A stretch of 64,000 bases of DNA from Cellulomonas sp. Y8 (GTDB lineage: Bacteria > Actinomycetota > Actinomycetes > Actinomycetales > Cellulomonadaceae): assembly GCF_008033115.1 (NCBI RefSeq), contig NZ_CP041203.1, positions 4,030,001 through 4,094,000 on the forward strand, read 5' to 3'. The notes beneath the pieces are model-generated. The model did not search any database, was not told the origin of the DNA, and was given only the letters and a program-made list of their open reading frames with translations. This document shows positions 12,643 through 39,727 of this stretch, piece by piece. Position 1 is the first letter of the stretch. Each line of letters opens with the position of its first letter. A program made the position numbers and the translations under genes.

Positions 12643-13588
12643 ATGCACGCCATCGGTGTGGACATCGGCGGGACGAAGATCGCCGCCGGTTTGGTCGACG
12701 AGGACGGCCGGATCATCGCGAAGACCCGTCGCGACACCGACCCCCGCGACTCCGGGAGCGTGGACCGCGGCGTCATCGAGGCCTGCCAGGAGCTCGCCGA
12801 GCAGTACGAGATCGGCGCGATCGGTCTCGCGGCCCCCGGCTTCATCGGCACCGACCAGGCCACCGTGCTGTTCACCCCGAACCTCCCGTGGCGCGAGCAC
12901 CCGCTGCGCGACATCGTCGCGAAGGAGCTCGGCGACGAGGTCGAGATCGTCGTGGCGAACGACGCCAACGCCGCGGGCTGGGCCGAGTTCCGGTTCGGTG
13001 CGGCGCGCGAGGAGCAGGACATGCTGCTGCTCACGATCGGCACCGGTCTCGGCGGCGCCATCGTGGTCAACGGCGAGCTCGTGCTCGGCGCCTGGGGCGT
13101 CGCGGCCGAGGTCGGCCACATGCGCGTCGTCCCCGGCGGCCACTACTGCGGCTGCGGCCACGAGGGCTGCTGGGAGCAGTACGCCTCCGGCAGCGCCCTG
13201 GTGCGCGACGCGCAGTCCGCGCTCATCACCGAGCCGGCCCGCGGCACCCGGCTGCTCGAGCTCGCCGGCGGCGACGCCGACGCGCTGACCGGCCCGCACG
13301 TCACCCAGGCCGCCCAGGAGGGCGACCCGCTGGCGGTCGAGCTGCTGGCCGAGCTCGGCCGGTGGATCGGCGAGGGCTCCGCGTCCGTCGCCGCGCTGCT
13401 CGACCCGTCGATCGTCGTCATCGGCGGTGGCGTGAGCGCGGCGGGCGACCTGCTGCTGGCGCCGGCCCGCCGGGGCGTTCCTCGACCAGCTGTCGGCGCG
13501 CGGTCACCGCCCGGAGGCGACGTTCGCGCTCGCCTCCATGGGCAACGACGCGGGCATCGTGGGCGCGGCGGACCTCGCGCGCCGCTGA
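12643..13588 (+). CDS. glkA: ROK-family glucokinase, apparent frameshift near the 3' end
   Basis: Phosphorylates glucose at the entry to glycolysis. It starts MHAIGVDIGGTKIAAGLVDE (phosphate motif) and has ANDANAAGWAEF, GTGLGGAIVVNGEL and the ROK zinc/signature CGCGHEGCWEQYASG (about residues 168-182). The reading frame is intact to about residue 276, then breaks at a GGGG run (13472-13475). Removing one G restores AFLDQLSARGHRPEATFALA and a normal C-terminus (NDAGIVGAADLARR) ending at TGA 13586-13588. Read as given, the protein would run on for about 100 unrelated residues. AGGGAA lies just before the ATG; a TAGCGT at 12530 implies a leader of about 107 nt. Confidence 0.88.
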
Positions 13589-13603
13589 GGCCACCCGCAC
13601 GTC

Positions 13604-13657
13604 CGCGACGGGCGCGCCGGAGCCGGGGGAGACCCCGCGTCCGGCGCGCCCGTCGCG
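13604..13657. terminator. Bidirectional terminator after glucokinase
   Basis: Perfect 18-bp arms (CGCGACGGGCGCGCCGGA, 13604-13621 and 13640-13657) between convergent genes. Confidence 0.8.
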
Positions 13658-13669
13658 CGTCCGGGTGCG

Positions 13670-14323
13670 TCAGACGACCGCGCCGTCCGAGTCGTCGTGC
13701 TCCGTGTCCCGCCGGTGCGGCATCCGCCAGAGCAGGACGACCAGGCCCAGCACGAACGTCACCACCGACGCCTGCATGACGACGGGCGGCGCGTCCCGCC
13801 AGAAGACGAGCACGACGAGCCACACCACGGGCATGAGCGCGATCGCCAGCCACGCCATCGTGAGCAGCGGGTCGCCGCCCAGCACCGGGCCCGGGTCCGG
13901 GGGCCGGAAGTGCTCGGCCTCGTCGACCCGCCGCTCGGCCTCGTCCATCTGGTCGGTCGCGTCCCAGTCACGGCCGGACAGCGGCGGCGGCGTGCCGGGG
14001 TCCGGGGGACCGGCCTCGGCGGGCGGCGCGGGCTCCTCACGCGCGGGACGCACGACGCGCCGGTCGGTCACCCACGGCGCGACGGGGTAGGTTACGGCGG
14101 GACCGGACGACGTCCGCGGGTCGTCCTGGCCTGCGGCGGCGGCCGCCGGCGGCGGCTCCGCCGGCCCGGTCGGGTCCGAGTCGCCGCGGAGCTCCGCGAC
14201 GATGGCGGCCCACTGCTCGTCGGTGACGCGGTCGCCGGACGGGCCGTGCTGCCGGTCGGCGCGCGGGCCGTCGGGCTCGTCGCCGTCGGGCGACGGGTCG
14301 GGGCGGTCGGGACGCGGAGCCAT
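13670..14323 (-). CDS. Hypothetical membrane protein with disordered N-terminal region
   Basis: 217 aa. Residues 1-150 are Pro/Asp/Arg rich and probably disordered. Near the C-terminus are two hydrophobic helices, MAWLAIALMPVVWLVVLVFW (about 153-172) and VMQASVVTFVLGLVVLLWRM (about 179-198), then an acidic tail. I recognise no family. The start at ATG 14323 is supported by a TAGAGT -10 only 6 nt upstream. It is divergent from plsC. Confidence 0.75.
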   Translation of the reverse strand: MAPRPDRPDPSPDGDEPDGPRADRQHGPSGDRVTDEQWAAIVAELRGDSDPTGPAEPPPAAAAAGQDDPRTSSGPAVTYPVAPWVTDRRVVRPAREEPAPPAEAGPPDPGTPPPLSGRDWDATDQMDEAERRVDEAEHFRPPDPGPVLGGDPLLTMAWLAIALMPVVWLVVLVFWRDAPPVVMQASVVTFVLGLVVLLWRMPHRRDTEHDDSDGAVV

Positions 14324-14329
14324 GGCAGC

Positions 14330-14335
14330 ACTCTA
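14330..14335 (-). promoter_or_regulatory. -10 element, leaderless membrane protein gene
   Basis: TAGAGT on the minus strand, 6 nt before ATG 14323. Confidence 0.55.
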
Positions 14336-14406
14336 GAGTCGGCTAGGAGCGCCGGGCACCCGACGGGTGCCCGACGGCCCGCACGACGAGGGCGAGAGGT
14401 GGCAGG

Positions 14407-15198
14407 TTGTTCTACTGGTTCATGAAGCGGGTCCTGGTGGGCCCGCTGCTGCACCTGCTGTTCCGCCCGTGGGTGCGGGGCGCGGAGCACGTGCCGAGCA
14501 GCGGCGCCGCGATCCTGGCCAGCAACCACCTGGCGGTCGTCGACTCGTTCTTCCTGCCGCTGGTGCTGGACCGGGAGATCGTGTTCATCGGCAAGAACGA
14601 GTACTTCACGGGCCGCGGGCTCAAGGGCCGGCTCACCGCAGGCTTCATGCGCGGCGTCGGCACCATCCCGGTCGACCGCTCCGGCGGCAAGGCCTCCGAG
14701 GCGGCGCTGCGCACCGGCCTGAACCGGCTCGCCGAGGGCAAGCTGTTCGGCATCTACCCCGAGGGCACCCGCAGCCCCGACGGCCGCCTCTACCGCGGCA
14801 AGACCGGCGTGGCGCGCATGGCCCTGGAGTCGGGCGCCCCGGTCATCCCCGTCGCGATGGTCGACACGGACAAGGCGCAGCCGCTCGGCCAGCGCCTGCC
14901 CCGGCCGCGACGCATCGGCATCGTCATCGGCGAGCCGCTCGACTTCAGCCGGTACAAGGGCATGGAGAACGACCGGTTCATCCTGCGCTCGGTGACCGAC
15001 GAGATCATGTACGCCCTCATGGCCCTGTCGGGCCAGGAGTACGTGGACATCTACGCCGCGACCCAGAAGGCGCGGATCGCCACCGGGCACCCCGCGGCGA
15101 CCGGCCCGGCGGCCCCCGAGCCGACCGCGCCCGGCGGCCGGGCCGTGCCCGATGTCCAGCCTCCGGTCCCGCCGGAGGAGGAGTCCGCGGCTCAGTAG
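14407..15198 (+). CDS. plsC: 1-acyl-sn-glycerol-3-phosphate acyltransferase
   Basis: Transfers an acyl chain to lysophosphatidic acid in phospholipid synthesis. 263 aa starting with a short membrane-associating segment (MFYWFMKRVLVGPLLHLLF). Acyltransferase motifs: NHLAVVDSFF (motif I, NHX4D, about residue 40), GFMRGVGTIPVDR (motif II), FGIYPEGTRSPDGRLYRGKTG (motif III, EGTRSP) and PVIPVAM (motif IV). The C-terminal about 40 residues are Pro/Ala rich. The start is an unusual TTG at 14407, supported by GAGAGG about 9 nt upstream; the next Met is five codons inside the protein. It matches Rv2182c by position. Confidence 0.92.
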   Translation: MFYWFMKRVLVGPLLHLLFRPWVRGAEHVPSSGAAILASNHLAVVDSFFLPLVLDREIVFIGKNEYFTGRGLKGRLTAGFMRGVGTIPVDRSGGKASEAALRTGLNRLAEGKLFGIYPEGTRSPDGRLYRGKTGVARMALESGAPVIPVAMVDTDKAQPLGQRLPRPRRIGIVIGEPLDFSRYKGMENDRFILRSVTDEIMYALMALSGQEYVDIYAATQKARIATGHPAATGPAAPEPTAPGGRAVPDVQPPVPPEEESAAQ

Positions 15199-15333
15199 GA
15201 TGAGCCGCGTCCGTCGCGCACCGCGCGGCGCGACCCGAGGACCTCGGTCCCGGGTCCGGTCCCGCGGGGTGCCCTTCAGTGGCCCCGGGGCTGGGATGAC
15301 CCAGCTGTGCTGTTCTATCGAGAGGTGTGTCTC

Positions 15334-16554
15334 ATGTCGGTTCGTCGCGTCGCGCTCCTGACCGCGGGTGGCTTCGCTCCGTGCCTGTCCTCGGCCGTCG
15401 GTGGCCTCATCGAGCGCTACACCGAGATCGCCCCCGAGGTCGAGATCATCGCCTACCAGCACGGGTACCACGGGCTCCTGCGCGGCGACAAGATCGTGAT
15501 CGACGCCGAGGGCCGCGCGCAGGCGCACCTGCTGCACCGGTTCGGCGGCTCGCCGATCGGCAACTCGCGGGTCAAGCTCACCAACGCGGCCGACTGCGTC
15601 AAGCGCGGGCTGGTCCAGGAGGGCCAGGACCCGCTGCAGGTCGCGGCCGAGCAGCTCAAGGCCGACGGCGTCGACGTGCTGCACACCATCGGCGGCGACG
15701 ACACCAACACCACGGCGGCCGACCTCGCGGCGTACCTGGCGGACAACGACTACGGCCTGACCGTCGTCGGCCTGCCGAAGACCATCGACAACGACGTGGT
15801 GCCGATCAAGCAGTCGCTCGGCGCGTGGACCGCCGCCGAGGAGGCCGCCGGCTTCGCCGCGAACGTCATCGGCGAGCACCGCTCCGGCCCGCGCATGCTC
15901 ATCGTGCACGAGGTCATGGGCCGGCACTGCGGGTGGCTGACCGCCGCCGCGGCCGCCGAGTACCGCAAGTGGCTCGACCGCCAGGAGTGGGCCCCGGCCC
16001 TCGGCCTGACGCGCGAGCGCTGGGACGTCCACGCCGTGTTCCTGCCCGAGCTGGCGCTCGACATCGACGCCGAGGCCGCGCGCCTCAAGGCGATCATGGA
16101 CACCCAGGGCAACGTCAACATCTTCCTGTCCGAGGGCGCGGGCATGCACGAGATCGTCGAGCAGCTCGAGGCGTCCGGCGCCGAGGTGCCGCGCGACCCG
16201 TTCGGCCACGTCAAGCTCGACACGATCAACCCGGGCCAGTGGTTCGCGAAGCAGTTCGCGGAGAAGCTCGGCGCCGAGAAGGTCATGGTCCAGAAGTCCG
16301 GCTACTACTCGCGCGCCGCGGCCGCGAACGCCGAGGACCTGCGCCTCATCAAGTCGATGACCGACCTGGCCGTGGAGTGCGCGCTGCGCAACGAGTCGGG
16401 CGTGATCGGCCACGACGAGGAGGACGGCGACCGCCTCAAGGCCATCGCGTTCCCGCGGATCGCCGGCGGCAAGGCGTTCGACGTCTCGCAGCCGTGGTTC
16501 GGCGCGATCCTGGAGGGCATCGGGCAGCCCCTGGTGCCCGCGACGGCGCACTGA
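15334..16554 (+). CDS. pfp: Pyrophosphate-dependent 6-phosphofructokinase
   Basis: Interconverts fructose 6-phosphate and fructose 1,6-bisphosphate. 406 aa. Donor specificity can be read from two residues: the loop is GGDDTNT, with Asp where ATP enzymes have Gly (GGDG), and the next motif is PKTIDND with Lys where ATP enzymes have PGTIDND. Both indicate PPi rather than ATP, so the reaction is reversible. Other conserved parts are MGRHCGWL and the GYYSRAAAAN region. ATG 15334 has GAGAGG 8 nt upstream; an in-frame start at 15307 is less likely. Its stop overlaps the start of the DAHP synthase by one base. Confidence 0.95.
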   Translation: MSVRRVALLTAGGFAPCLSSAVGGLIERYTEIAPEVEIIAYQHGYHGLLRGDKIVIDAEGRAQAHLLHRFGGSPIGNSRVKLTNAADCVKRGLVQEGQDPLQVAAEQLKADGVDVLHTIGGDDTNTTAADLAAYLADNDYGLTVVGLPKTIDNDVVPIKQSLGAWTAAEEAAGFAANVIGEHRSGPRMLIVHEVMGRHCGWLTAAAAAEYRKWLDRQEWAPALGLTRERWDVHAVFLPELALDIDAEAARLKAIMDTQGNVNIFLSEGAGMHEIVEQLEASGAEVPRDPFGHVKLDTINPGQWFAKQFAEKLGAEKVMVQKSGYYSRAAAANAEDLRLIKSMTDLAVECALRNESGVIGHDEEDGDRLKAIAFPRIAGGKAFDVSQPWFGAILEGIGQPLVPATAH

Positions 16555-17906
16555 TGAGCGTCGAGGCGGACCCGCGGGTCCTGCAGGGCCTCGAGGCCTG
16601 GCGGGACCTGCCCGTGACGCAGCAGCCGGCGTGGCCGGACCGGGACGCGCTCCAGCGCGTGACCGACCGGCTCGCCGGGCTGCCGCCCCTGGTGTTCGCG
16701 GGGGAGGCCGACGCGCTGCGCGGCCAGCTCGCGGCCGCCGGGCGCGGCGAGGCGTTCCTGCTGCAGGGCGGCGACTGCGCCGAGACCTTCGCCGAGGCCA
16801 CCGCGGACAACATCCGCGGCAAGATCATGACGGTCCTGCAGATGGCGGTCGTGCTCACGTACGGCGCCAGCCTGCCCGTCATCAAGATGGGCCGGATGGC
16901 CGGGCAGTACGCGAAGCCGCGGTCGTCGGACTCGGAGACCCGCGACGGCGTCACGCTGCCCGCGTTCCGGGGCGACATCATCAACGGCTTCGAGTTCACC
17001 CCCGAGGCCCGCACGCCGGACCCCGAGCGGCTGCTCGACGCGTACCACACGTCGGCGTCGACGCTGAACCTCATCCGCGCGTTCACCACCGGGGGCTTCG
17101 CGTCCCTGCTGCGGGTGCACGAGTGGAACCGGGGCTTCACCGCCAACCCGGCGTACGCCCGGTACGAGGAGATCGCCGCCGAGATCGACCGGGCCATCCG
17201 GTTCATGGCGGCGTGCGGTGCCGACTTCGACGCCCTGCGGACCGTCGACTTCTACGCGAGCCACGAGGGGCTGCTGCTCGACTACGAGCGGCCGCTCACC
17301 CGCATCGACTCGCGGACCGGCCTGCCGTACGACTGCTCGGCGCACTTCCTGTGGATCGGGGAGCGCACCCGGCAGCTCGACGGGGCGCACGTCGACTACT
17401 TCAGCCGCGTGCACAACCCGATCGGCATCAAGCTCGGCCCGACGTCCACCGCGGACGACGCGCTGCGCCTGATCGACAAGCTCAACCCGAGCGCCGAGGC
17501 CGGCCGGATCACGTTCATCACCCGCATGGGCGCCGGCAAGATCCGCGACCTGCTGCCCTCGCTGGTGGAGAAGGTCACGGCCGACGGCCGCCCGGTCACC
17601 TGGGTGTGCGACCCGATGCACGGCAACGGCATCACGTCCGCCTCGGGCTACAAGACCCGCCGGTTCTCGGACGTCATGGACGAGGTCGCCGGGTTCTTCG
17701 AGGTGCACCGCGCGCTCGGCACCGTGCCGGGCGGCCTGCACATCGAGCTCACCGGGGACGACGTCACCGAGGTGCTCGGCGGCGCCGAGGAGATCGACGA
17801 CGCCGGGCTGGCGCGCCGGTACGAGACGCTGGTCGACCCGCGGCTCAACCACCAGCAGTCGCTGGAGCTCGCGTTCCAGGTCGTGGAGCTGCTCCGGCGC
17901 TCCTGA
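16554..17906 (+). CDS. aroG: Class II 3-deoxy-7-phosphoheptulonate (DAHP) synthase
   Basis: Condenses phosphoenolpyruvate and erythrose 4-phosphate, the first step of the shikimate pathway. 450 aa, plant/mycobacterial (type II) length. Signature segments: FLLQGGDCAETF (metal-binding Cys), PVIKMGRMAGQYAKPRS, INGFEFTPEAR, DFYASHEGL, CSAHFLWIGERTR, NPIGIKLGP, ITRMGAGKIRDLLP, WVCDPMHGNG and GGLHIELTGDDVTEVLGG. ATG 16554 overlaps the pfp stop (TGATG). Coupling of a glycolytic kinase that uses PPi with a PEP-consuming enzyme may be metabolically meaningful. Corresponds to Rv2178c. Confidence 0.97.
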   Translation: MSVEADPRVLQGLEAWRDLPVTQQPAWPDRDALQRVTDRLAGLPPLVFAGEADALRGQLAAAGRGEAFLLQGGDCAETFAEATADNIRGKIMTVLQMAVVLTYGASLPVIKMGRMAGQYAKPRSSDSETRDGVTLPAFRGDIINGFEFTPEARTPDPERLLDAYHTSASTLNLIRAFTTGGFASLLRVHEWNRGFTANPAYARYEEIAAEIDRAIRFMAACGADFDALRTVDFYASHEGLLLDYERPLTRIDSRTGLPYDCSAHFLWIGERTRQLDGAHVDYFSRVHNPIGIKLGPTSTADDALRLIDKLNPSAEAGRITFITRMGAGKIRDLLPSLVEKVTADGRPVTWVCDPMHGNGITSASGYKTRRFSDVMDEVAGFFEVHRALGTVPGGLHIELTGDDVTEVLGGAEEIDDAGLARRYETLVDPRLNHQQSLELAFQVVELLRRS

Positions 17907-17912
17907 CCCCCG

Positions 17913-17964
17913 CGCACCACGACGGCCGCCGCCCCTCCGGAGGGGCGGCGGCCGTCGTCGTGCG
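17913..17964. terminator. Bidirectional terminator (26-bp arms)
   Basis: A 52-base inverted repeat with arms of 26 bases and a single mismatch pair (arm centre GACGGCCGCCGCCCCTCC), between the convergent DAHP synthase and glyoxalase genes. Confidence 0.85.
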
Positions 17965-17973
17965 GGGCGGGCG

Positions 17974-18387
17974 TCAGGCCGCGCGCTGGTTGAACCGCAG
18001 CATGTTGCCCGACGGGTCGCGGAACGCGCAGTCCCGCACGCCGTACGGCTGGTCGATCGGCTCCTGGAGCACCTCGCCGCCCGCCGCGCGGATGTGCTCG
18101 AAGGTCGTGTCGACGTCGTCCGTCTGGAAGATGACGCCGCGCAGCAGGCCCTTGGCGAGCAGCTCCGCCATCGCCTGCTTGTCGGCGTCGGACGCGCCCG
18201 GGTCCGCCAGCGGCGGCTCGAGCACGATCGTGACGTCCGGCTGGCTCGGCGGGCCGACGCTCAGCCACCGCATCCCCTCGAACCGGACGTCGTTGCGCAC
18301 CTCGAGGCCCAGGACGTCCCGGTAGAACGCCAGGGCCAGGTCGTGGTCGTGCACGGCGATGAAGCACTGCTGCAGCGTGATGTCCAT
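17974..18387 (-). CDS. Glyoxalase/bleomycin-resistance (VOC) family protein
   Basis: 137 aa, one vicinal-oxygen-chelate domain of two beta-alpha-beta-beta-beta modules: CFIAVHDHDLALAFYRDVLG at the N-terminus, EPPLADPG in the middle, and DCAFRDPSGNMLRFNQ at the C-terminus. The substrate is not predictable. ATG 18387 has TAGCGT 7 nt upstream, so it has its own leaderless promoter, which straddles the stop codon of the AraC-type gene upstream. VOC genes beside AraC regulators are common, and the regulator may control it. Confidence 0.85.
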   Translation of the reverse strand: MDITLQQCFIAVHDHDLALAFYRDVLGLEVRNDVRFEGMRWLSVGPPSQPDVTIVLEPPLADPGASDADKQAMAELLAKGLLRGVIFQTDDVDTTFEHIRAAGGEVLQEPIDQPYGVRDCAFRDPSGNMLRFNQRAA

Positions 18388-18392
18388 GGCCG

Positions 18393-18827
18393 TCACGCTA
18401 GAGGGACCGGGTCGCGCGGCGCTTCTCCGTTCCTGACCGGTCGGGTGCGGACCTTCGCGACGCACGCGGGGACCGCCGCGCCGGCGTCGTGCTGCTGCGC
18501 GCGGTAGGCGGACGGGCTCATCCCGACGAGCTCGGAGAACCGCGCGCTGAAGGAGCCCAGGGAGGTGCAGCCGACCTCGACGCACACGTCGGTGACGCTG
18601 AGGTCGCCGCGCCGGAGCAGGGCCTTGGCCCGCTCGATCCGCCGGGTCATCAGGTAGCCGTAGGGCGTCTCGCCGTACGCGGCGCGGAACGACCGGGAGA
18701 AGTGGCCGGCGGACATCAGCGCCTCGCGTGCGAGCGTGGGGACGTCGAGCGGCTGGGCGTAGTCGCGGTCCATCCGGTCCCGGGCGCGGCGCAGCCGGAC
18801 CAGGTCGTCCAGGGACGGGTTCGGCAC
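18393..18827 (-). CDS. AraC-family transcriptional regulator (DNA-binding domain only)
   Basis: 144 aa, with the C-terminal tandem HTH of the AraC family but no sensor domain. The first HTH is in LDVPTLAREALMSAGHFSRS and the second in LSVTDVCVEVGCTSLGSFSARF, followed by GMSPSAYRAQ. A basic tail of about 30 residues follows. GTG 18827 is the start. It ends 5 bases before the glyoxalase start on the same strand, so it likely regulates or is cotranscribed with it. Confidence 0.88.
   Translation of the reverse strand: MPNPSLDDLVRLRRARDRMDRDYAQPLDVPTLAREALMSAGHFSRSFRAAYGETPYGYLMTRRIERAKALLRRGDLSVTDVCVEVGCTSLGSFSARFSELVGMSPSAYRAQQHDAGAAVPACVAKVRTRPVRNGEAPRDPVPLA
18395..18400 (-). promoter_or_regulatory. 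-10 element, leaderless glyoxalase gene
   Basis: TAGCGT on the minus strand, 7 nt before ATG 18387. It overlaps the last codons and stop of the AraC gene. Confidence 0.55.
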
Positions 18828-18858
18828 GCCGCGCCTCCTCGCTCGCCGCTGCGGGGGT

Positions 18859-20871: not shown

Positions 20872-20878
20872 GGGCGGC

Positions 20879-20919: not shown

Positions 20920-22323
20920 TCAGTAGCGCGCCATGTGCGTCTGGACGTTCGCGACGTACCGGCGGGTGTCGCTGAACATGCCGTTCCGCTTCACCGAGGA
21001 CGCCCCCTGGTAGTAGGACGCGACGGCGGTCGACAGGTCGGGCGACGTGCGGACGAGCTGGCGGATGATCGCCACGCCGGCCACGACGTTGTCGTCCGGG
21101 TCGAGCAGGTTGAGGTCGCGGCCCACGAGCTGCGAGGCCCACTCGCCGGAGCTCGGGATGACCTGCATCGTGCCGATGGCGTTCGCGGGGGAGACCGAGG
21201 TGTGGTTGAAGCCGGACTCCTGGAACGCGATCGCCTGCGCGAGCGCCGGGTCGACGCCCATCGAGCGGGCCGTCGCGGCCACCTTGGCCTGCATCGCGGC
21301 CTTGGACGGCACGCCCATGGCGATGAGCGCGGCCTTGTTCGCGTTCGCGGAGGCGACGACGGTCGGGGCGTAGGTGCGGCCGAGGAACGTGTTGCCCACC
21401 AGCTGCGCGCCGCCGGTCGCGGCCGGGGCGGCGGCCGCCGCGGCGCCGGACGCGCCGGGGATCGTCAGGGTCTGGCCGACGCGGATGAACGCGCGGGAGT
21501 CCAGGCCGTTCGCGGACGTGATCGCCGCGACGGTGGTGCCGTAGCGCTTCGCGATGGCGGAGACGGTCTCGCCGGAGGCGACGGTGTGCCTGCCGCCCGC
21601 GGAGGTGGGCGCGGCGGCGGTCGTCGCGGCGGCGCCGGACGCGCCGGGGATCGTCAGGGTCTGGCCGACGCGGATGAACGCGCGGGAGTCCAGCCCGTTC
21701 GCGGAGACGACCGCGGCGACGGTGGTGCCGTAGCGCTTCGCGATGGCGGAGACGGTCTCGCCGGAGGCGACGGTGTGCGCGCCGCCGGTCGCGGCCGGGG
21801 CGGCGGCGGTCGTCGCGGCGGCACCGGACGCGCCGGGGATCGTCAGGGTCTGGCCGACGCGGATGAACGCGCGGGAGTCCAGGCCGTTCGCGGACGTGAT
21901 CGCCGCGACGGTGGTGCCGTAGCGCTTCGCGATGGCGGAGACGGTCTCCCCGGAGGCGACGGTGTGCGCGCCGCCCGCGGAGGCGGGCGCGGCGGTGGTG
22001 GTGGCCGCGGCGCCGCCGGCGGTCGGGATCGTCAGGCGCTGGCCCTCGCGGATGAAGGCGCTGCCGTTCAGGCCGTTGGCGCTGCGCACCGCCGTCACGC
22101 TCGTGCCGTACTTCGCGGCGATGTGGCTGACGGTGTCGCCCGAGCGCACCGTGTACTGCTCGTCGGCGTGCGCGGCGGGGGCCGCGGCGGTGGCCGCGAC
22201 CGCGGCGATGGCGAGCGCGCCGGTGCTGGTGGCGAGGCGCCGACCGCGGCGGCCCGCGGCGCGGGCCGGGGCGCCGAGGGCGCGCGCGGCCTGGTCCGTG
22301 AGGGCGAGGGCGGGCTGCGACAT
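20920..22323 (-). CDS. Secreted lytic transglycosylase with four LysM domains
   Basis: 467 aa cell-wall hydrolase. An Arg-rich N-terminus and a signal helix (TGALAIAAVAATAAAPAAHA, cleavage near AHA-DE) precede four LysM peptidoglycan-binding domains. The first (YTVRSGDTVSHIAAKYG) has diverged; the next three are almost identical (HTVASGETVSAIAKRYGTTV ... FIRVGQTLTIP), joined by Ala/Thr linkers. The C-terminal about 115 residues are an SLT/MltD-like transglycosylase domain with catalytic Glu in AIAFQESGFNHTSVSPANA and a GTMQVIPSS motif. ATG 22323 follows an AGGGG site. An array of MtrA-like boxes lies upstream. It is next to a PASTA kinase, which fits wall remodelling. Confidence 0.92.
   Translation of the reverse strand: MSQPALALTDQAARALGAPARAAGRRGRRLATSTGALAIAAVAATAAAPAAHADEQYTVRSGDTVSHIAAKYGTSVTAVRSANGLNGSAFIREGQRLTIPTAGGAAATTTAAPASAGGAHTVASGETVSAIAKRYGTTVAAITSANGLDSRAFIRVGQTLTIPGASGAAATTAAAPAATGGAHTVASGETVSAIAKRYGTTVAAVVSANGLDSRAFIRVGQTLTIPGASGAAATTAAAPTSAGGRHTVASGETVSAIAKRYGTTVAAITSANGLDSRAFIRVGQTLTIPGASGAAAAAAPAATGGAQLVGNTFLGRTYAPTVVASANANKAALIAMGVPSKAAMQAKVAATARSMGVDPALAQAIAFQESGFNHTSVSPANAIGTMQVIPSSGEWASQLVGRDLNLLDPDDNVVAGVAIIRQLVRTSPDLSTAVASYYQGASSVKRNGMFSDTRRYVANVQTHMARY
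21455..21972. repeat. Three near-identical LysM-coding tandem repeats
   Basis: Three units of about 185-190 bases, each with a core of about 135 bases nearly identical in DNA (starting near 21458, 21648 and 21831 on the plus strand). They encode LysM domains 4, 3 and 2. DNA identity, including third positions, implies recent duplication or gene conversion, and recombination here would change LysM number. Confidence 0.85.
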
Positions 22324-23026: not shown

Positions 23027-24146
23027 TCAGGCCCGGCGGTCGACCGCGGCGTGGCCGAGGGCGACGAGCATCGCCCGGCCGTCCTCGGTGAGCTCCGCCC
23101 GGGCGAGCGCGGCGAACCCGCGCGCGCTGAGCTCGGCGATGAGCCCCTCGACCTCGGCCACGGCGCCGCTGGCCTCGATCCGGGCGGCGAGCGACCGGCA
23201 CGCCTCGTCGTCGAGCGTGCGGTCGCCGAGCCCGGCGTGCAGCGCGTCGGCGAGCCCCGCGTCGCCCGTGGCCAGCGCGCGGGCCATCGCCCTGGCCACC
23301 AGCACGGTCCGCTTGCCCTCGCGCAGGTCGTCGCCCGCCGGCTTGCCCGTCGTGGCGGGGTCGCCGAACACGCCGAGCAGGTCGTCCCGGAGCTGGAACG
23401 CCTCGCCGAGCGGGAGGCCGTACGCGGCGGTGGCGGCGAGCGCGCCCTCGTCGGCGCCGGCGAGCACGGCGCCGAGCAGCAGCGGGTGCTCCACGCTGTA
23501 GCGCGCCGCCTTGGCGACGATGACCTCGCGGGCGCGCTGCTCGTCCGCCGCCGGGTCCTCGCCCCAGGGCAGCACCTCGGCGAGCAGGTCGAGGTACTGC
23601 CCGACGGTGACCTCGGTCCGCATCCGCTCGAACACCGCGTGCGCGGCGACGCGCCGGTCCGCCGGCAGGTCCGCCACGGCGCGCGCGAACTCGCGCTCGC
23701 TCGCGACGAGGGCGAGGTCGCCGAGCAGGATCGCCGCGGACTCGCCGAACCGGTCGGGGGTCGCCGGACCAGCCCTGCTCGGCGTGCCGGGCGGCGAACA
23801 GCCGGTGCGCCGCGGGCTGCCCGCGCCGGGTGTCGGAGTCGTCCATCACGTCGTCGTGGAACAGCGCCGCCGCCTGGAACAGCTCGAGCGCCGCCCCGAC
23901 GCGGAGCACCACCTCCGCCTCGGGGGAGTCGGGGTCGCCGCCGTGCGCGCGCCACGACCACCAGCAGAACGCCGCCCGCAGCCGCTTGCCGCCGCCGAGC
24001 ATGTGGCTCAGGCCCTCGGCGAGCGGCGCCGCACCCGCGCCCGACCGGACCAGCTCGGGCAGCAGCGCCTCGACGTGCTCCGTGAGCAGGGCGTCGACCC
24101 GGGTGCGGAGGTCCTCGGCGTCGACGAGTGCGGGGGCGGTGCTCAC
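23027..24146 (-). CDS. Polyprenyl diphosphate synthase (IdsA-like), apparent frameshift
   Basis: Chain-elongating trans-prenyltransferase that makes geranylgeranyl-type diphosphates. The N-terminal half has GGGKRLRAAFCWWS and the first Asp-rich motif LFHDDVMDDSDTRRG (about 95-110). The C-terminal half has LLLGAVLAGADEGALAA, the second Asp-rich motif FQLRDDLLGVFGDPATTGKPAGDDLREGKRT. The two halves are in different frames. The break is at a GGGGG run on the plus strand (23756-23760); removing one base joins GWSGDPDRFGESAAILLGD and gives about 372 aa, normal for the family. GTG 24146 has TAGGCT 6 nt upstream. Corresponds to idsA2 (Rv2173). Confidence 0.88.
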
Positions 24147-24158: not shown

Positions 24159-24677
24159 GGGCCTCACAGCCGGACGGTCCCGCCCAGCGTGAGCGTGCGG
24201 GACGCCGTCGCGGTCGAGCACGCCGAGCGTCAGCAGCTCCGCGGCGCCGTCGCCGCGGACGAACGTCGACGTCGCCGCCAGGCCGGTGGAGCCGGGGTCG
24301 AGCACCGTCTCGGCGAAGCCGGCCGCGACCAGCTGGTCCCGCACCGCCTGGACCAGCTGGTCCGTCGCGAGCGGGCTGCGCAGGTTGAGGCTGATCGTCG
24401 TCAGCCCGGTCGCCGCGTCGGTGTCGGCGCTCGAGACCAGGATCTCGCTGCCCTCGGGCGGGGACACCAGGTCCGACGGGAACCCGGCGGCCAGGTCGCC
24501 GACCGCGGACCCCGTCGACGTCGGGCTCGGCAGGAGCGACTCCGTGGGCGCCGGTGCCGTAGCGGTCCCGGTCGCGGCGGTGCCGGTCGGCCGGGCGGCG
24601 TCGTCGTCGCCGGTGCAGCCCGCCGTGCCGAGCGCCACGAGCGCGAGGAGGACGACGGCGAGGGGGCGGCGGAGCAC
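24156..24677 (-). CDS. Small lipoprotein, unknown function; C-terminus probably frameshifted
   Basis: 173 aa as read. It has a lipoprotein signal peptide (LRRPLAVVLLALVALGTAGC, lipobox GTAGC), a Thr/Ala/Pro-rich linker, then a compact alpha/beta domain of about 100 residues (EGSEILVSSADTDAATGLTT, LVQAVRDQLVAAGFAETVLD). I recognise no family. The end reads VPHAHAGRDRPAVRP. Removing one C from a CCC run (plus-strand ggg at 24199-24201) gives VRTLTLGGTVRL with a stop at 24164, a more natural strand ending, so a base insertion is likely. GTG 24677 has TACTGT 7 nt upstream. Confidence 0.75.
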   Translation of the reverse strand: MLRRPLAVVLLALVALGTAGCTGDDDAARPTGTAATGTATAPAPTESLLPSPTSTGSAVGDLAAGFPSDLVSPPEGSEILVSSADTDAATGLTTISLNLRSPLATDQLVQAVRDQLVAAGFAETVLDPGSTGLAATSTFVRGDGAAELLTLGVLDRDGVPHAHAGRDRPAVRP

Positions 24678-24684
24678 GGGCGCC

Positions 24685-24690
24685 ACAGTA
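24685..24690 (-). promoter_or_regulatory. -10 element, leaderless lipoprotein gene
   Basis: TACTGT on the minus strand, 7 nt before GTG 24677. Confidence 0.5.
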
Positions 24691-24804: not shown

Positions 24805-26155
24805 ATGACGACCACGACGCCCCGGCCGGGCTCCCGGCCCGACGACCTTCCCGCCGACGCCCCCGCCGCCGGCCCCTCCGACCCCCGCGCCACGCTCCGG
24901 CTCGGGCACCCCCGCGAGCTGCTCGCGCTCGTGCCGTACCTGCTCGGCTTCCCGCCGCGGGCCTCCGCCGTGCTCGTGTCGCTCCGGCCGCCGGGCCGCC
25001 GGCTCGGGGTCGTCGTGCGCACCGACCTGGACGACCTCCTGAGACCGGACGGCGCGCTGCTCGCCGACGGGCTCGCGGGCCACCTGCGGGCGGACGGGGC
25101 CGCGGAGGTCGTCGTCGTGCTGCACGCGGGGGAGGGCGACCCGCGCGACCCCGACCGCGGCCTGCGGGTGGCCCGCGGCACCCGCGCCGGGCGCGCCGCG
25201 GACCTGCTCCGGCGCGCCGTCGCCGACGTCGCGCCCCTCACCGTCTGGTCCGTCGACGACGACCGCTACGTCGGGCTGGACTGCCGGGACCCGGGCTGCT
25301 GCCCGGTGGGCGGCCACCCGCTCGCCGACCTGTCGGGCGGGGAGCTCGCGGGTCGGCTGGTCGGCGCGCGCGGAGGGATGGCCGGCTCCCGCGAGGAGCT
25401 CGGGCTGGTGCGCCCGGCGGCACCCGGCCCGCGCCGGTCCGCCGCGGCCGCCCGGTCGCGCTGGCTCGACGCCCTGCTGCGCGCCGAGGGGCCGGACGCC
25501 GTCCTGCGCTGGCGGCAGCGGTCGCTCGACGCGTGGCGGACCGCGACCGGCACGAGCCAGGACTTCCGGGCGTCGCGCCCGTCCGCCGCCGTTCTCGGGC
25601 GGCTCGAGGCCGCGCTGCTCGACCCCGTCGTGCGCGACGCCGTCGTGCTGACCCTCGTCGACCCGGACGACGCCGGGCTGCCGGACGCGGTGCTCCGCAC
25701 CGGCGTGACGGGCCCGGGCCTCCCGGGCGGCCCGGGGGCCGGGCGAGGACCGGTGGCCCGAGGAGGACGGCGACCGGGTCCCGGGCGCGGAGGGCGGACG
25801 GGTCGGGGACGGCGCCGACCGCGGATCCGATCCCGACGCCACCGACGTGTCCGACCGGGTGCGCGCCGCGCTCGACCTGGTGGTCGACCCCGCCCGGGGC
25901 CGTGAGCCCCGCGAGGACGTCACGGCGGCGGGACGGACCGTCCTCGAGCAGGTCGTCGCGCACGGGCGCCGCGACCAGCAGGCGCCCGCGCTCACCGTGC
26001 TCGCCCTGCTGGCGTGGTGGGACGGGGACGCCGTCCGGGCCTCGGTCCTGGTCGAGCGGGCGCTGGACCAGGACCCCGGTCACCGGCTCGCCGAGCTGCT
26101 CGACCGGGCCCTCGGCGCGGGGCTCCCGCCCGGGTGGGTGCGTCGCCGCTGCTGA
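24805..26155 (+). CDS. DUF4192 family protein, apparent frameshift
   Basis: Actinobacteria-specific family of unknown function, often found upstream of sigA. The N-terminal domain has RLGHPRELLALVPYLLGFPP and GVVVRTDLDD, then GVGL-type core WSVDDDRYVGLDCRDPGCCP and HPLADLS. After about residue 310 the frame breaks at a cccggggg run (25734-25738). The other frame continues with EDRWPEEDGDRVPGAEGG and DRVRAALDLVVDP, and ends in a helical TPR-like tail (TVLALLAWWDGDAVRASVLV) at 26155. Total length is a multiple of three plus one, so one extra base explains it; the corrected protein is about 449 aa. Confidence 0.8.
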
Positions 26156-30301: not shown

Positions 30302-32449
<2,148 letters not shown>

Positions 32450-32553: not shown

Positions 32554-33600
32554 ATGCCCGAGACGACTGAGACGCCCGCCGTCCCGCCGCTCGCGGTGCG
32601 CGCGGCCGCGCCCGCGACGCTCCCCGAGCCCGACCCCGCCGCCACCGGCCTGACCTGGCGACCGCTCACGCGCGACGACGTCCCGGTGCTGGCCGCGCTG
32701 GTCGCCCGGATCGAGGCGGCCGACGCCCAGCCGTTCCGCACCAGCGAGACCGAGGTCGGCGAAGGCTTCGACGGCGACTGGAAGGACCCGGCGCGGGACT
32801 CGCGCGTCGGGCTCGACGCGGGCGGCGTCCCGCGCGCCTGGATCACCCTCGACGCCCCGCCCGGGGACGTCCGGGTCATCCGCGTGTGGGTGTTCGGCGG
32901 CGTGGACCCGGAGTGGCGCGGCCGCGGCATCGGGCGCGCGATCCTGGCCTGGGCGACCGCGCGGGCGCGGCAGAAGCTCGTCGAGTCCGGCAAGGACGCG
33001 CCCGGGCGCATCGCGGCGTTCCTGGAGGACCACCGCGCCGAGGCGCTCGCGCTGCACGCCGCGGCCGGCTACGCGCCGATCCGGTACTTCACCGACATGC
33101 GCCGGGACCTGTCCCGCCCGCTGCCGGAGCCGCGCCCGCTCGACGGCGTGCGTGTCGTGCCGTGGTCGGCCGACCTCGACGACGCCGTGCGGCTGGCGCA
33201 CAACGAGGCGTTCGCCGACCACTGGGGGAGCGAGCCCCGGACGGCGGAGCACTGGCAGCAGGGCCGCGCGATGTTCGCCCCGCAGTGGAGCCACGTGGCC
33301 CTCGACGAGGCGACCGGCGAGGTCGCGGGCTACACGATGTCCGGCCGGTACGAGCACGACTGGGAGATCGCGGGGTTCACGTCGGGCTACACCGAGCTGC
33401 TCGGCGTGCGGCGCGCGTGGCGCGGACGCGGCCTCGCGCCGGCGCTGCTGACCGCCGCCATGGCGTCGTTCCGGGCGGACGGCATGCAGTACGCCGAGCT
33501 CGACGTCGACACCGAGAACCCGTCGGGCGCGCACGGCCTGTACGCCAGCCTCGGCTACGAGGTGACGCACGGCGCGATCATGTACACGATCGAGGTCTGA
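32554..33600 (+). CDS. Tandem GNAT acetyltransferase
   Basis: 348 aa with two GNAT folds. The first (about 30-175) has acetyl-CoA motif A as VWVFGGVDPEWRGRGIGRAIL. The second (about 195-348) has LLGVRRAWRGRGLAPALLTA and ends DTENPSGAHGLYASLGYEV. Tandem GNAT enzymes include mycothiol synthase and Eis-like enzymes, but the substrate here cannot be assigned. I chose ATG 32554: a CACCGT element, weak but correctly placed, lies 7 nt upstream; the in-frame GTG at 32545 overlaps it. Confidence 0.82.
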   Translation: MPETTETPAVPPLAVRAAAPATLPEPDPAATGLTWRPLTRDDVPVLAALVARIEAADAQPFRTSETEVGEGFDGDWKDPARDSRVGLDAGGVPRAWITLDAPPGDVRVIRVWVFGGVDPEWRGRGIGRAILAWATARARQKLVESGKDAPGRIAAFLEDHRAEALALHAAAGYAPIRYFTDMRRDLSRPLPEPRPLDGVRVVPWSADLDDAVRLAHNEAFADHWGSEPRTAEHWQQGRAMFAPQWSHVALDEATGEVAGYTMSGRYEHDWEIAGFTSGYTELLGVRRAWRGRGLAPALLTAAMASFRADGMQYAELDVDTENPSGAHGLYASLGYEVTHGAIMYTIEV

Positions 33601-33606
33601 CGGAAC

Positions 33607-33631
33607 GGCCCCGTCGCGCGACGGCGGGGCC
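33607..33631 (+). terminator. Short hairpin after the GNAT gene
   Basis: GGCCCCGTCG and CGACGGCGGGGCC arms (one bulge), ending 2 bases before the TACGCT element of the next gene. Confidence 0.6.
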
Positions 33632-33632
33632 C

Positions 33633-33638
33633 TACGCT
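33633..33638 (+). promoter_or_regulatory. -10 element, leaderless MarR gene
   Basis: TACGCT, 6 nt before ATG 33645. Confidence 0.55.
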
Positions 33639-33644
33639 GTGCGC

Positions 33645-34118
33645 ATGGCTCCAGAGGACGGGCGCGCGCAGGTCGACGAGGACGCCACCTGGCGCATGTA
33701 CCTGGGACTCTCCCGGGAGATGTTCACGGCGCTCGAGCGCGGGCTCGGCGCCGACGCCGGCGTGTCCGTCGCCGACCTCGAGCTGCTCGAGCCGCTGCTC
33801 GCGGCCGGGCACCCCGGCCTGCGCGCCAAGGACCTCGCCGCGGCGGCCGAGTGGCAGGACAGCCGGGTCTCGCACCAGCTGCGCCGCATGGAGTCCCGCG
33901 GGCTCGTGACGCGCAGCCGCGACCGCCAGGACGGCCGCGGCACCGTCGTCTGCCTCACCGAGGCGGGCGAGGCGGCCGCGCGGGCCGCGCAGCACACCCG
34001 GCGGGTGCTCGTGCGCGACCTGCTGCTGTCGCCGCTGGACGACGCGCAGGTGGCGTCGCTCGTCGAGGTGTCGGGCCTGGTCCGCGCCCGCATCGCCGCC
34101 ACGGGCCAGGCCCGCTAG
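33645..34118 (+). CDS. MarR-family transcriptional regulator
   Basis: 157 aa. A winged helix with GLRAKDLAAAAEWQDSRVSHQLRRMESRGLV (recognition helix around DSRVSHQLRR) and the wing TRSRDRQDGRGTVVCLTEAG, flanked by dimerisation helices at both ends (WRMYLGLSREMFTALERGL; LVEVSGLVRARIAA). The DRxDxR wing motif of MarR proteins is present (DRQDGR). No obvious target beside it other than the GNAT gene upstream. Leaderless start with TACGCT. Confidence 0.88.
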   Translation: MAPEDGRAQVDEDATWRMYLGLSREMFTALERGLGADAGVSVADLELLEPLLAAGHPGLRAKDLAAAAEWQDSRVSHQLRRMESRGLVTRSRDRQDGRGTVVCLTEAGEAAARAAQHTRRVLVRDLLLSPLDDAQVASLVEVSGLVRARIAATGQAR

Positions 34119-34167
34119 CCCCGACCCGCCGGGCCGCCGCGCCCACCGGGGGCGTGGCCCGGACCGC

Positions 34168-34222
34168 GAGCGAGTACCCGACACGTCGAGCGAGCAGCCG
34201 CCGGGTACTCGCTCGACGCGTC
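34168..34222. repeat. Palindromic repeat, copy B, with two alternative stems
   Basis: One stem pairs GAGCGAGTACCCG (34168-34180) with its perfect complement (34202-34214). A second, overlapping stem pairs GACACGTCGAGCGAG (34180-34194) with CTCGCTCGACGCGTC (34208-34222, one mismatch). The second stem and its CGAGCGAGCA loop side resemble copy A at 6586-6628. Both copies lie between convergent genes. Confidence 0.7.
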
Positions 34223-34308
34223 TCCTGCACTCTCGGCGCAGCGCTGCGCGCCCGCGCAGCACCGCGCGCTCGCCAGCGCTCGTCAGTCGGCCAGCGGGTG
34301 CCGCCGGG

Positions 34309-36821
34309 TCAGCCGATCGCCAGGGGCGGGGCCGCCAGGGGCTGGCCCGAGCCGTCGCGGCGGTCGTCCGGCTCCGGGAGGTCGACCGGCTGGCCCGCCG
34401 AGCCCGTGGCCCGCGCCGGGGCCGGGCCGACCCAGGCGAGGAACAGCGCGTCCTCGCCCTTGAGGAACCGGTGCGCCCGGACGCCGCCGGTCGCGCGGCC
34501 CTTGCCGGGGTAGCGGGAGAACGGCGTGACCTTGGCCGAGCCCGCCTGGGTGCCCGGCAGCGCGTCCGACGCCCCGGCGACCGTCACCACGACCGGGCCC
34601 TCGGCGTCGTAGACCGCGTCGGAGCCCGCGGGCAGCGCGCCGAAGTGCACCACCCGCTGGCCGGCGGCGAGCTTGATGCCCGCCATGCCGCCCGCGGGAC
34701 GGCCCTGCGGGCGCACGGCCGCCGCCGGGAAGTGCAGCAGCGCGGCGTCGGAGGCGACGAACACGAGCTCGTCCTCGTCGGTCACGGTCGCGCAGCCGAC
34801 CACCTCGTCGCCGTCCTTGAGGCCGATGACCTCCCAGGAGTCGCGGTTCGCGGGCGCCTCGCCGGAGCTGACCCGCTTGACCACGCCCTGCGCGGTGCCG
34901 ACCGCGAGCGTCGGGGCGTCGGCCGTCACGGGGACCAGCCCGACGACCTTCTCGCCCTTGTCGAGCGCGAGGAGCTCGGACAGCGGGAGGCCGCCGGAGA
35001 GGTTCGGCGCGCCGTCGGTCGGCGGCAGGCCCGGCAGGTCGAGCACGGACACCCGCCGGACGACGCCGCGCGAGGTCAGCACGCCGACCTCGCCGCGCAC
35101 GGAGGTCGCGACGGCACCGGACAGCACGTCGTGCTTGGACCGGCCGGCGCCGGGCGCGGGCCGCAGCTCGACGTCGGTGCTGCCGGTGCGCGCGACCAGG
35201 CCGGTCGCGGACAGCAGCGCGTAGCAGGGGGTGTCCTCGATCTCGAGCGACAGGGCCGGGGTGGCGGCGCGCCCGGACCGCGGCGCCGGCGCGCCCTCGG
35301 CGGCGGTGGCCACGCCACCCGCGGACTCCAGCAGGATCGTGCGGCGCGGGGTGCCGTAGGTCGCGGCGACCTCCGCCATCTCGTCGCTCACCGTGGTCCG
35401 GAGCAGCGCCTCGTCGCCGAGGATCGCCTGCAGCGCCTCGATCTCGCCGAGCAGCTCGTCGCGCTCCTTCTCCAGCTCGATGCGGGAGAACCTGGTCAGG
35501 CGGCGCAGCCGGAGCTCGAGGATGTACTCGGCCTGCGGCTCGGACAGGTCGAACACCTGGCGCAGCCGGGTGCGCGCGGCGTCCGCGTCGTCGGAGGACC
35601 GGATGACCTGGATGACCTCGTCGATGTCGACGATCGCGATGAGCAGGCCCTCGACGAGGTGCAGCCGCTCCTGCTTCTTCCGCAGCCGGAACTGGCTCCG
35701 GCGCCGCACCACGGAGATCCGGTGGTCGACCCACACCTGGAGCAGGTCGCGCAGCCCGAGGGTGCGGGGCTGGCCGTCGACCAGGGCGACGTTGTTGATC
35801 GAGAACGAGTCCTCGAGCGGGGTGTACCGGTAGAGCTGCTCCAGCACGGCCTCGGGGTTGAACCCGGTCTTGACCTCGATGACGAGGCGCAGGCCGTGCT
35901 GCCGGTCGGTGAGGTCGAGGGCGTCCGAGATGCCGGAGAGCTTCTTGGACTGCACGCCCTCCTTGATCTTCTCGATGACCTTCTCCGGGCCGACGGTGTA
36001 CGGCAGCTCGGTGACGACGATGCCCTTGCGGCGCGGGGTGACGTTCTCGATCCGCGCGGTGGCCCGGGTGCGGAACGCGCCGCGGCCGGTGCGGTAGGCG
36101 TCGCGCACGCCCTCGAGGCCGACGATCTTGCCGCCGCTGGGCAGGTCGGGCCCGGGCACGAACCGCATGAGCTCGTCCAGCGCCTCGGGGTGCAGCACGA
36201 GGTGCCGGGCGGCCGCGACTACCTCGACGAGGTTGTGCGGGGCCATGTTCGTGGCCATGCCGACGGCGATGCCGGACGCGCCGTTGACCAGCAGGTTGGG
36301 GATCGCGGCGGGCAGCACGCCGGGCTGGGTCAGCTTGTTGTGTCGTAGTTCGGGACGAAGTCGACGACGTCCTCGTCCAGGCTCTGCGTCATCGCGAGCG
36401 CGGACGGCGCCATGCGCGCCTCGGTGTACCGGGGGGCGGCGGGTCCGTCGTCGAGCGAGCCGAAGTTGCCGTGCCCGTCGACCAGCGGCAGCCGCAGGGA
36501 GAACGGCTGCGCCATGCGGACCATCGCGTCGTAGATCGCGGTGTCGCCGTGCGGGTGCAGCTTGCCCATCACCTCGCCGACGACGCGCGCCGACTTCACG
36601 TGCGCGCGGTCGGGCCGCAGGCCCATGTCGTGCATCTGGAACAGGATGCGGCGCTGCACCGGCTTCAGGCCGTCGCGGGCGTCGGGCAGGGCGCGCGAGT
36701 AGATGACCGAGTAGGCGTACTCGAGGAACGAGCCCTCCATCTCGGTGGCGACGTCGATGTCGACGATGCGCTCGACGACGTCCTCCGGCGGGACGTCGGG
36801 TGTGCTGCTGCGGCGCGCCAT
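34309..36821 (-). CDS. parC: DNA topoisomerase IV subunit A (ParC), apparent frameshift
   Basis: Breakage-reunion subunit, about 837 aa after correction. It begins [20 protein letters not shown] with [35 protein letters not shown] and the catalytic Tyr in APRYTEARM. At NYD (about residue 160) the frame breaks: minus-strand GACACAACAAG should be GACAACAAG (YDNKLTQPG), i.e. two extra bases near 36338-36343. The other frame then gives [20 protein letters not shown], a coiled coil, and C-terminal beta-pinwheel blades ([20 protein letters not shown]). No GyrA box (QRGGKG) is present; the nearest match is [10 protein letters not shown], favouring ParC. As given, only about 163 residues would be made. 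Pairs with parE. Confidence 0.88.
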
Positions 36822-36922
36822 GCTGGGGGCTGCTCCCGGGATCGGCGGTGCGGGTGGTCGGCGCCCATTGTCGCCGCTCCGCGAGCCTGTGGACCACCAC
36901 GACGCGCGGCGCGCCGGTTGGT

Positions 36923-36928
36923 TAGGCT
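36923..36928 (+). promoter_or_regulatory. -10 element, leaderless GNAT/acyl-CoA synthetase gene
   Basis: TAGGCT, 7 nt before ATG 36936. Confidence 0.6.
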
Positions 36929-36935
36929 CGTGGGC

Positions 36936-39727
36936 ATGGCCGAGAGCACCGGGGGCGCGCCCGACGAGGCGGCGGACTACCCGGAGAGCTGGGAGGCCGA
37001 CGTCGTCCTCCGCGACGGCAGCACCACGCACGTGCGGCCGATCCGCCCCGAGGACGCGGACGCCCTGCAGGCGTTCCACGTCGGCCAGTCCGAGGCGTCG
37101 ATCGTGTTCCGGTTCTTCGCCCCGCTGGAGCGCCTGGGCGACCGGGACCTCGCGCGGTTCACCCGCGTGGACCACCGGGACCGGGTCGCGCTGGTGGCGG
37201 TGACGGGGGACGACGCGATCATCGGCGTCGCCCGGTACGACAAGGTCGGCCCCGACGAGGCCGAGGTGGCGTTCAACATCGCCGACGCGCACCACGGCCG
37301 CGGGCTCGGCTCGGTGCTGCTGGAGCACCTGGCCGCGGCGGCGCGCGAGCGCGGCATCCGCCGGTTCACCGCCGACGTGCTGCCGCAGAACGGCCGGATG
37401 ATCGCGGTGTTCCGCGAGGCCGGGTACTCGCTGCAGCAGCGCCTGGAGGACGGCGTGGTGACGGTGGGCTTCGACATCGACCCGACGGACCGGTCGCTCG
37501 CGGTGATGATGGCCCGCGAGCACGCCGCGGAGGCGCGCAGCGTCCAGGCGCTGCTCACCGCCCGGTCGGTGCTGGTGCTGTCGTCGCCGAACGCCGAGCC
37601 GGGGTCCCTGGACGACCGCCGTGCCGAGCGCGTGCTGGCGGACCTGGTCGGGGGCGTGCCGTCCGCGGCGGACCCCGCGCACCGCACCGGCGCCGTCACG
37701 GCGGCCGGCGGCGACGAGCGCGGCGTCGAGGTGCACGTGGTCGGCCGCCCGGCGCCCGACGGCGCCGACCCGCGCCCGACGGTGCACCACTGGGACCGCC
37801 TCGACGACGTCCCCGGCCCCGTCGACCTCGCCGTGCTCGCGCTGCCCGCCGCGGAGGCCGTCGTCGCGGTCCGCGCGCTCGGCCGGCTCGGCGTCAAGGG
37901 CGTCGTCGTGCTGTCGGGCGGGTACGCCGAGCAGGGCCCCACCGGCCTCGCGCTGCAGCGCGCCCTGCTGCGCGCCGCGCACGCCGCCGGGCTCCGGGTG
38001 GTCGGCCCGCGGTCGTACGGCCTGCTCGCGCACGCCGCGGGCGGGCTGCTCAACGCCTCGCTCACCGAGGACCCGCCGCCGCCCGGGCGGATCGGGCTGT
38101 TCTGCCAGTCCGCCTCGACCGCGGTGTCGATCCTCGGCTCGGTGCGCCGCCGGCACCTCGGCCTCGCGCACCTCGTGTCCGCGGGCAACCGCGCCGACGT
38201 GTCCGGCAACGACCTCATGCAGTTCTGGCAGGACGACGACGCGACCGACGTCGTCGCGCTGTACCTGGAGTCGATCGGCAACCCCCGCAAGTTCTCCCGC
38301 GTCGCCCGGCGCCTGGCCGCCGCGAAGCCCGTGGTCGTGGTGACCGCGGGCCGGTCCGGCCACGTCGTGCCGCCCGGGCACGCCGTCCGGCCCACGCAGG
38401 CCTCGCGGCAGACGCTGCAGGAGGTGATGCGACGCTCGGGCGTCGTGCTGGTCGACAACGTGCACCAGATGCTCGAGGTGTCGCAGCTGTTCGCCCTGCA
38501 GCCGCTGCCCCCGGGCCGCCGCGCCGCGGTGGTCGCCTCGTCGTCCGCCGCCGCGTCGCTGGTGTCCGAGGCGCTGGCCGCCGCGGGGTTCACCGTCGCC
38601 CGCGCGCCGGCGATCCTGCACGAGGACGCCGACGACGCGAAGGTCGAGCGCACGTTCGCCGCGGTGTACGCCGACCCGGACGTCGAGGTCGTCGTCACCA
38701 TGCACGTGCCGACCGTGGGCCCGCGGGACGACCGGGTCGCCCAGGCGCTCGCCGAGCACGCCGCCGGGTCGGGGCGGACGTCCGTGGCCTGCCTGCTGGG
38801 GCTGCACGGCGCGACGCCGGCGCTCACCGCGCCGGACGCGGACGGCGCCCTGCGCACGGTCCCCGCCTACACCACCCCGGAGGACGCCGTCCTCGCGCTC
38901 GACCCAGGCGGCCCGGTACGCCGCGTGGCGGGCGGCCGACCGCGGCCGGCTCGTCGCCCCCGAGGGCATCCACGCCCGCACCGCCCGCCGCCGCATCGCG
39001 GGCTGGCTCGACGAGGCCGGCAGCCGGGCGTCGCTCGACCTCACGCACGAGCAGGTGGCCGAGCTCCTGGCCCTCGCCGGGGTGGAGGTGTTCCCGACGG
39101 TCGGCGTGCACGACGCGGACGAGGCCGTCGCGGCAGCGGACCGCCTGGGCTGGCCCGTCGCCCTCAAGTCGACCGTCCCGGCGCTGCGGCACCGCTCCGA
39201 CCTCGGCGGGGTGCGGCTCGACGTGCACGACGAGGCCGAGCTGCGCGCCGACGTCGACCAGGTGCTCGCGCTCGCCGCCGGCCGGGGCGCCCGAGCCGGG
39301 GCGCGCGCCGCTGGAGGTGCAGGCGATGGCCCCGCACGGGGTCGCCTGCGTCATCCGGTCCGCGGAGGACCCGCTGTTCGGCCCGGTGCTCGGGTTCGGG
39401 CTCGGCGGCGACACCACGGACCTGCTCGGCGACGTGGCCTGGGCGGTGCCGCCGCTCACCGACGTCGACGTGTCCGACATGGTCCGCGCCCCGCGGTCGT
39501 CGCCCCGGCTGTTCGGCTACCGGGGCGTCCCGCCGCTCGACGTCGCCGCGCTGGAGGACGTGCTGGCGCGGGTGGCCGTGCTGTCCGACCAGCTCCCGGA
39601 GCTGCTGCACCTGGAGCTCAACCCGGTCGTCGTGGCCGAGCGCGGCGCCTACGTGCTGGGCGCCACGGCCCGCGTCGGGGTGGCCGGCACCCGGGCGGAC
39701 GGACCGCGCCGCGCGCTGCCCGCCTGA
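36936..39727 (+). CDS. GNAT/NDP-forming acyl-CoA synthetase fusion (Pat type), two apparent frameshifts
   Basis: About 930 aa after correction. An N-terminal GNAT domain (about 25-185: [34 protein letters not shown]) is followed by a CoA-binding domain (SVLVLSSPN...GGYAEQGP), succinyl-CoA-synthetase-like domains ([37 protein letters not shown]) and a C-terminal ATP-grasp ([39 protein letters not shown]). Related fusions are protein lysine acetyltransferases or acetate-CoA ligases; both activities are possible. The frame breaks near 38899-38910 (GACCCAGG, one extra base) and at the GGGG run 39284-39287; correcting both gives a continuous protein. Leaderless start. Confidence 0.87.

Follow-up and report, generated by a model that had tools for sequence, protein, structure and literature searches.

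The window analysed here, a stretch of 64,000 nucleotides, corresponds to bases 4030001-4094000 of the single-contig genome of Cellulomonas sp. Y8. This bacterium was obtained from farmland soil, its ANI to C. pakistanensis is 93.03%, and its genome (accession CP041203) measures 4,475,991 bp with 75.35% GC (PMC6856271). A sample of 500 kb taken from the same genome gave 75.34% GC. Six genes of the window appear as split reading frames, one of them being broken twice (Table 1). At the far end of the window lies a complete rRNA operon with 16S, 23S and 5S genes, which explains the low GC content of this end. The operon is probably also why the contigs of the related genomes G009 and G037 stop just before it. 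The window also encodes a protein with near-identical internal repeats that resemble LysM; the G009 copy of this gene contains a run of N.

Table 1. Split genes and other features of the window (positions counted from its first nucleotide)
Feature	Coordinates	Strand	Position of the frame switch
ROK-family glucokinase, glkA-like	12643..13588	+	in a G run, ~13472-13475, near the 3' end
Protein with near-identical internal repeats	20920-22323		
Polyprenyl diphosphate synthase, idsA-like	23027..24146	-	~23756
Small protein ("lipoprotein" in the first-pass annotation)	24164..24686	-	~24199, near the 3' end
DUF4192 protein	24805..26155	+	between 25734 and 25745
Topoisomerase IV subunit A, parC	34309..36821	-	2-nt insertion, ~36338-36342
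GNAT/acyl-CoA synthetase fusion	36936..39727	+	two switches, ~38903-38905 and ~39284-39288
rRNA operon (16S, 23S, 5S)	57634-62849	+	

The pieces of the split genes were compared with family profiles. The 5' piece of the glkA-like gene matches positions 2-251 of the 294 positions of the ROK profile PF00480, and its match to the NCBIfam ROK family glucokinase lies slightly below the cut-off. In the idsA-like gene, the 5' piece covers positions 5-81 of PF00348 and the 3' piece positions 77-225. The two pieces of the DUF4192 gene carry positions 1-251 and 252-320 of PF13830, and those of parC positions 1-118 and 123-431 of PF00521. In the GNAT/acyl-CoA synthetase fusion, the first piece contains GNAT, CoA_binding_2 and Succ_CoA_lig domains, the second ATP-grasp_5, and the third a CoA-ligase match. 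The 5' piece of the small protein gene has no match in Pfam or NCBIfam. Two further, unbroken members of the polyprenyl synthase family occur elsewhere in the Y8 genome, so that the break in the idsA-like gene would by itself prove little. For parC, the only other full-length family member in Y8 is a gyrase A-like paralogue, 39% identical.

A three-periodic codon HMM was run on the window without foreknowledge of the seven sites. It found 21 same-strand frame junctions, seven of which were those proposed by the first-pass annotation; for the small protein gene, the model placed its segments at 24201-24686 and 24164-24200. We read the 14 other junctions as gene overlaps or abutting gene ends. 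For 13 of these, one or more relatives show a counterpart, the junction at 44316 being without one of the same type. With a filter removing overlaps, six of the seven sites were kept, together with a 35-nt segment at 18434 that is common to G009; parC was dropped owing to a nearby stop and start. Five of the seven passed the stricter filter with which the genome-wide counts were made. The window has 52 kb of coding DNA, in which no frameshift beyond the seven was detected; as roughly a fifth of test insertions escape the detector, a further one or two may be present.

The sites were then compared with related genomes. The nearest ones, G009, G037 and G040, have a parE 99% identical to that of Y8, with a DNA identity of 91-94% in most long blocks and of 79-85% in the block containing the DUF4192 gene. 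Among named genomes, in a scan from which Y8 and very close genomes may be absent, Pengzhenrongella and Promicromonospora gave the best hits. At 13475, 23756 and 24199, the window carries an extra base facing a gap in G009, G048 and G057. At 36342 (2 nt), 38905 and 39288, the extra bases face a gap in all aligned relatives (five at each site). At 25734-25744, in the DUF4192 gene, the DNA is too diverged for alignment, and the site was bracketed at the protein level. Two proteins, P0001 (463 residues) and P0002 (449 residues), are both 92% identical to the first piece. Residues 1-310 of the intact P0002 match piece one (92% identity) and residues 314-449 match piece two (90% identity), so that 10 nt stand where three residues belong. 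The comparison thus bore out the earlier proposal that all the switches are insertions, of two bases in the case of parC; the positions given for them differed by no more than 4 nt at the six sites that could be aligned, and for DUF4192 the position fell on the edge of the bracket. The idea that runs of 3-5 G or C harbour most of them held for the five aligned single-base sites but not for parC, where the local sequence is a TG/GT repeat. A raw list of indels against G009, in which 129 of 182 were non-triplet, served only as a check of the sites, many of its entries being intergenic or compensating pairs on our reading.

Coding constraint was measured downstream of the six shifts that lie outside the small protein gene. 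In comparisons with G009, G048 and G057, an excess of third-position substitutions persists after each of the six. The 3' piece of parC, for instance, shows 11, 4 and 124 substitutions at the three codon positions with respect to G009, a distribution like those of the parE and sigA controls. We also considered whether the split genes could be pseudogenes. The relaxed selection expected in that case is absent and the third-position excess is kept; a very recent loss would escape this test.

In order to see how far the phenomenon extends, 25 other 20-kb stretches of the Y8 genome (500 kb, 425,041 coding bases) were submitted to the same detector. Thirteen stretches each of G048 (2 contigs; 219,361 coding bases) and of G057 (1 contig; 222,565 coding bases) served as controls, a small set of two genomes only. 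Training of the HMM had used sequence from five relatives, among it the regions of G048 and G057 syntenic with the window. With the strict filter, 29 of the 35 calls in Y8 were of the insertion type, as compared to one of seven in G048 and the single call in G057. Per 100 kb of coding sequence, the insertion-type rate was 6.8 in Y8 and 0.45 in the controls, a difference of about 15-fold (P=1.4e-7). Deletion-type calls showed no excess, with six in Y8 and six in the controls (G048 6, G057 0); the eight strict control calls and the six deletion-type calls of Y8 were counted as the detector gave them. In the stretches syntenic with the window, the strict filter left no call in G009, G040, G048 and G057, and one deletion-type call in G037. 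The detector recovered 311 of 384 artificial insertions, with a recall going from 0.88 in the lowest GC quartile to 0.75 in the highest. Corrected for control rate and recall, these counts give a rough figure of about 300 insertion-type frameshifts in the Y8 assembly. With its five strict-filter sites, the window is not exceptional for the Y8 genome (P=0.29). The defect reaches far beyond it, in patches, which extends what had been proposed from the window alone.

Unrelated genes, core ones among them, are affected, as the first-pass annotation had remarked for the window. We submitted to Pfam 20 of the 48 pieces resulting from the genome-wide calls, and 15 matched a family; TIM, GH43, allophanate hydrolase C-terminal, diacylglycerol kinase and FtsX-like families are among them. 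In particular, the sole triosephosphate isomerase gene of the genome (L128:8434-9232) is split by an insertion-type event near genome position 4308670, its pieces matching positions 1-65 and 67-243 of the TIM profile.

The calls are spread over 11 of the 25 stretches, more unevenly than expected by chance (P=0.005). When the seven window sites were included (36 sites), 15 neighbouring pairs were found within 2 kb as compared to 4.2 expected, a value that was not reached in 5000 shuffles. Averaged over 2 kb, the GC content was 77.5% around the sites, as compared to 75.7% around randomly chosen G/C runs (p=7e-5). Because recall drops as GC rises, this trend does not reflect a detection bias. The link falls to p=0.036 when one site per 5-kb cluster is retained (17 sites), and two of the window sites, parC (11th GC percentile) and glkA (53rd), are off the trend.

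Outside the window, 12 of the 29 calls, forming three clusters, were checked by alignment, with up to three (L105) or four (L113) of the six supplied relatives covering the places. Six of the 12 could be placed, namely 4/4 at L105, 2/4 at L113 and 0/4 at L109, whose sequence (80% GC) is poorly alignable. In this last region (L109:14200-18500), an interval of 1.8 kb holds four calls of the insertion type and one of the deletion type, the first call being located in or adjoining a glycosyltransferase gene. One deletion was also seen at L105, in comparison with two of three relatives and outside the called genes. Among the six sites placed outside the window, two are in runs of 2 and one is in a run of 6. 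Taken together, 11 single-base insertions were exactly placed (five in the window, four at L105, two at L113). After insertion, their runs have a mean length of 3.5 as compared to 2.6 for random duplication (P=0.0025). All eleven are G or C, which is only mildly unusual (P=0.04).

The sequence comparisons argue strongly, with a probability that we put at about 95%, that the seven switches are not features of the Y8 cell but errors introduced into CP041203 by sequencing or assembly; in the bacterium itself, the six window genes are almost certainly whole. The first-pass annotation had attributed the switches to a base-calling or assembly bias and not to biology, a view supported by a signal that is biased to insertions, present genome-wide, clustered, and nearly absent from relatives examined with the same detector. 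If the extra bases were instead real and recent mutations, the culture would be repair-deficient, with some 300 slippage frameshifts in short runs. The somewhat longer runs extended by the insertions would agree with such an origin, and a loss recent enough would show no relaxed selection. However, the sole triosephosphate isomerase and topoisomerase IV subunit A would then be broken in a strain reported as growing at a high rate on LB (PMC6856271). Clustering at the kilobase scale and the lack of a deletion excess also speak against slippage in the cell, and we consider this explanation very unlikely. A variant appears less plausible still. Here, Y8 would be in a mutator state, with hundreds of insertion-biased frameshifts in short G/C runs, and the core functions would be provided by slippage during expression or by a mixed population. 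Actinobacteria are described as lacking classical MutS/MutL.

Recoding would give full-length proteins through ribosomal frameshifting at the sites, and the conserved frame after each measured junction is what such a mechanism would require. At the six aligned sites, the relatives are without the extra base and read straight through, which is at odds with recoding. Moreover, the genes and the sites are unrelated and no common motif is visible by eye, which leaves recoding with a negligible probability.

If the switches are errors, their likely cause lies in the way the genome was assembled. PacBio RS II reads (232,404 reads, mean 3,620 bp) were assembled with Falcon, and recorrection was by Pilon with Illumina reads (20,382,470 reads, mean 148 bp) or by Quiver; the Illumina library had undergone 8 PCR cycles, and the reads are deposited as SRR9639643 (PacBio) and SRR9639642 (Illumina) (PMC6856271). 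From these published counts, the mean depth comes to about 190x for PacBio and 670x for Illumina. With such depths on both platforms, so many residual errors would require polishing to have failed locally. In raw PacBio continuous long reads, insertions are the dominant error, which fits the absence of a deletion excess. PCR-amplified Illumina libraries, for their part, are expected to suffer at 75% GC. The cause that we find probable is that extra PacBio bases survived where sparse Illumina reads left Pilon unable to correct them. The Falcon draft would carry extra bases, and Illumina correction would remove them wherever reads were present. In the most GC-rich patches, where the amplified library would drop out, they would stay, any Quiver step having failed to clear them.

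A weakened GC link and a parC event outside any G/C run are counterpoints to this scenario. The errors could also stem from a low local PacBio depth or from unpolished Falcon joins, independently of any loss of Illumina reads. Strong clustering at the kilobase scale would agree with such a cause, as would the weakness of the GC link at one site per cluster and the position of the parC and glkA sites outside GC-rich regions. On the other hand, the full set of sites is enriched in GC, and Illumina dropout is expected at 75% GC, with a parallel in the available part of PMC6325685. This second cause is possible and seems to us the less likely one; given the modest GC link and the parC and glkA sites outside GC-rich DNA, our preference for Illumina dropout over poor PacBio depth is itself a restrained one.

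Overall, the analysis reveals no new biology; it is a concrete data-quality warning on one public genome. Some 300 spurious frameshifts would distort the gene count of Y8, its pseudogene calls and statements on missing functions: read naively, CP041203 has neither an intact parC nor an intact triosephosphate isomerase. As far as the accessible parts of the articles show, one group has based three papers on this genome, and a fourth paper names its accession. In one report, clone-library sequences of Y8 were 94.32-99.53% identical to the genome and, in the part available, the authors blame errors in the clone reads (PMC7016576). Part of this mismatch could be due to errors in the genome. The combination of an insertion excess, patchiness, a link with GC and kept coding constraint offers a quick test for other high-GC hybrid assemblies.

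We found no report in the literature of insertion errors for actinobacterial PacBio genomes polished with Pilon, and a search for residual PacBio RS II errors gave no title that looked related. The closest parallels come from other platforms. In a Pseudonocardia genome of 74% GC, differences remaining after Pilon were attributed to uncorrected regions without mapping MiSeq reads, according to the available text (PMC6325685). As with Y8, that work combined a high-GC actinobacterium, a biased short-read library and Pilon polishing, and residual differences were left; unlike Y8, it used MinION long reads and the Canu assembler. The Kastor study, in its accessible part (PMC12007338), likewise describes short indels, many at homopolymers, that split intact genes and inflate pseudogene counts. 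Its small-genome example concerns MinION data with homopolymer-linked deletions, whereas in Y8, a PacBio RS II assembly, it is insertions that are in excess, located in short G/C runs.
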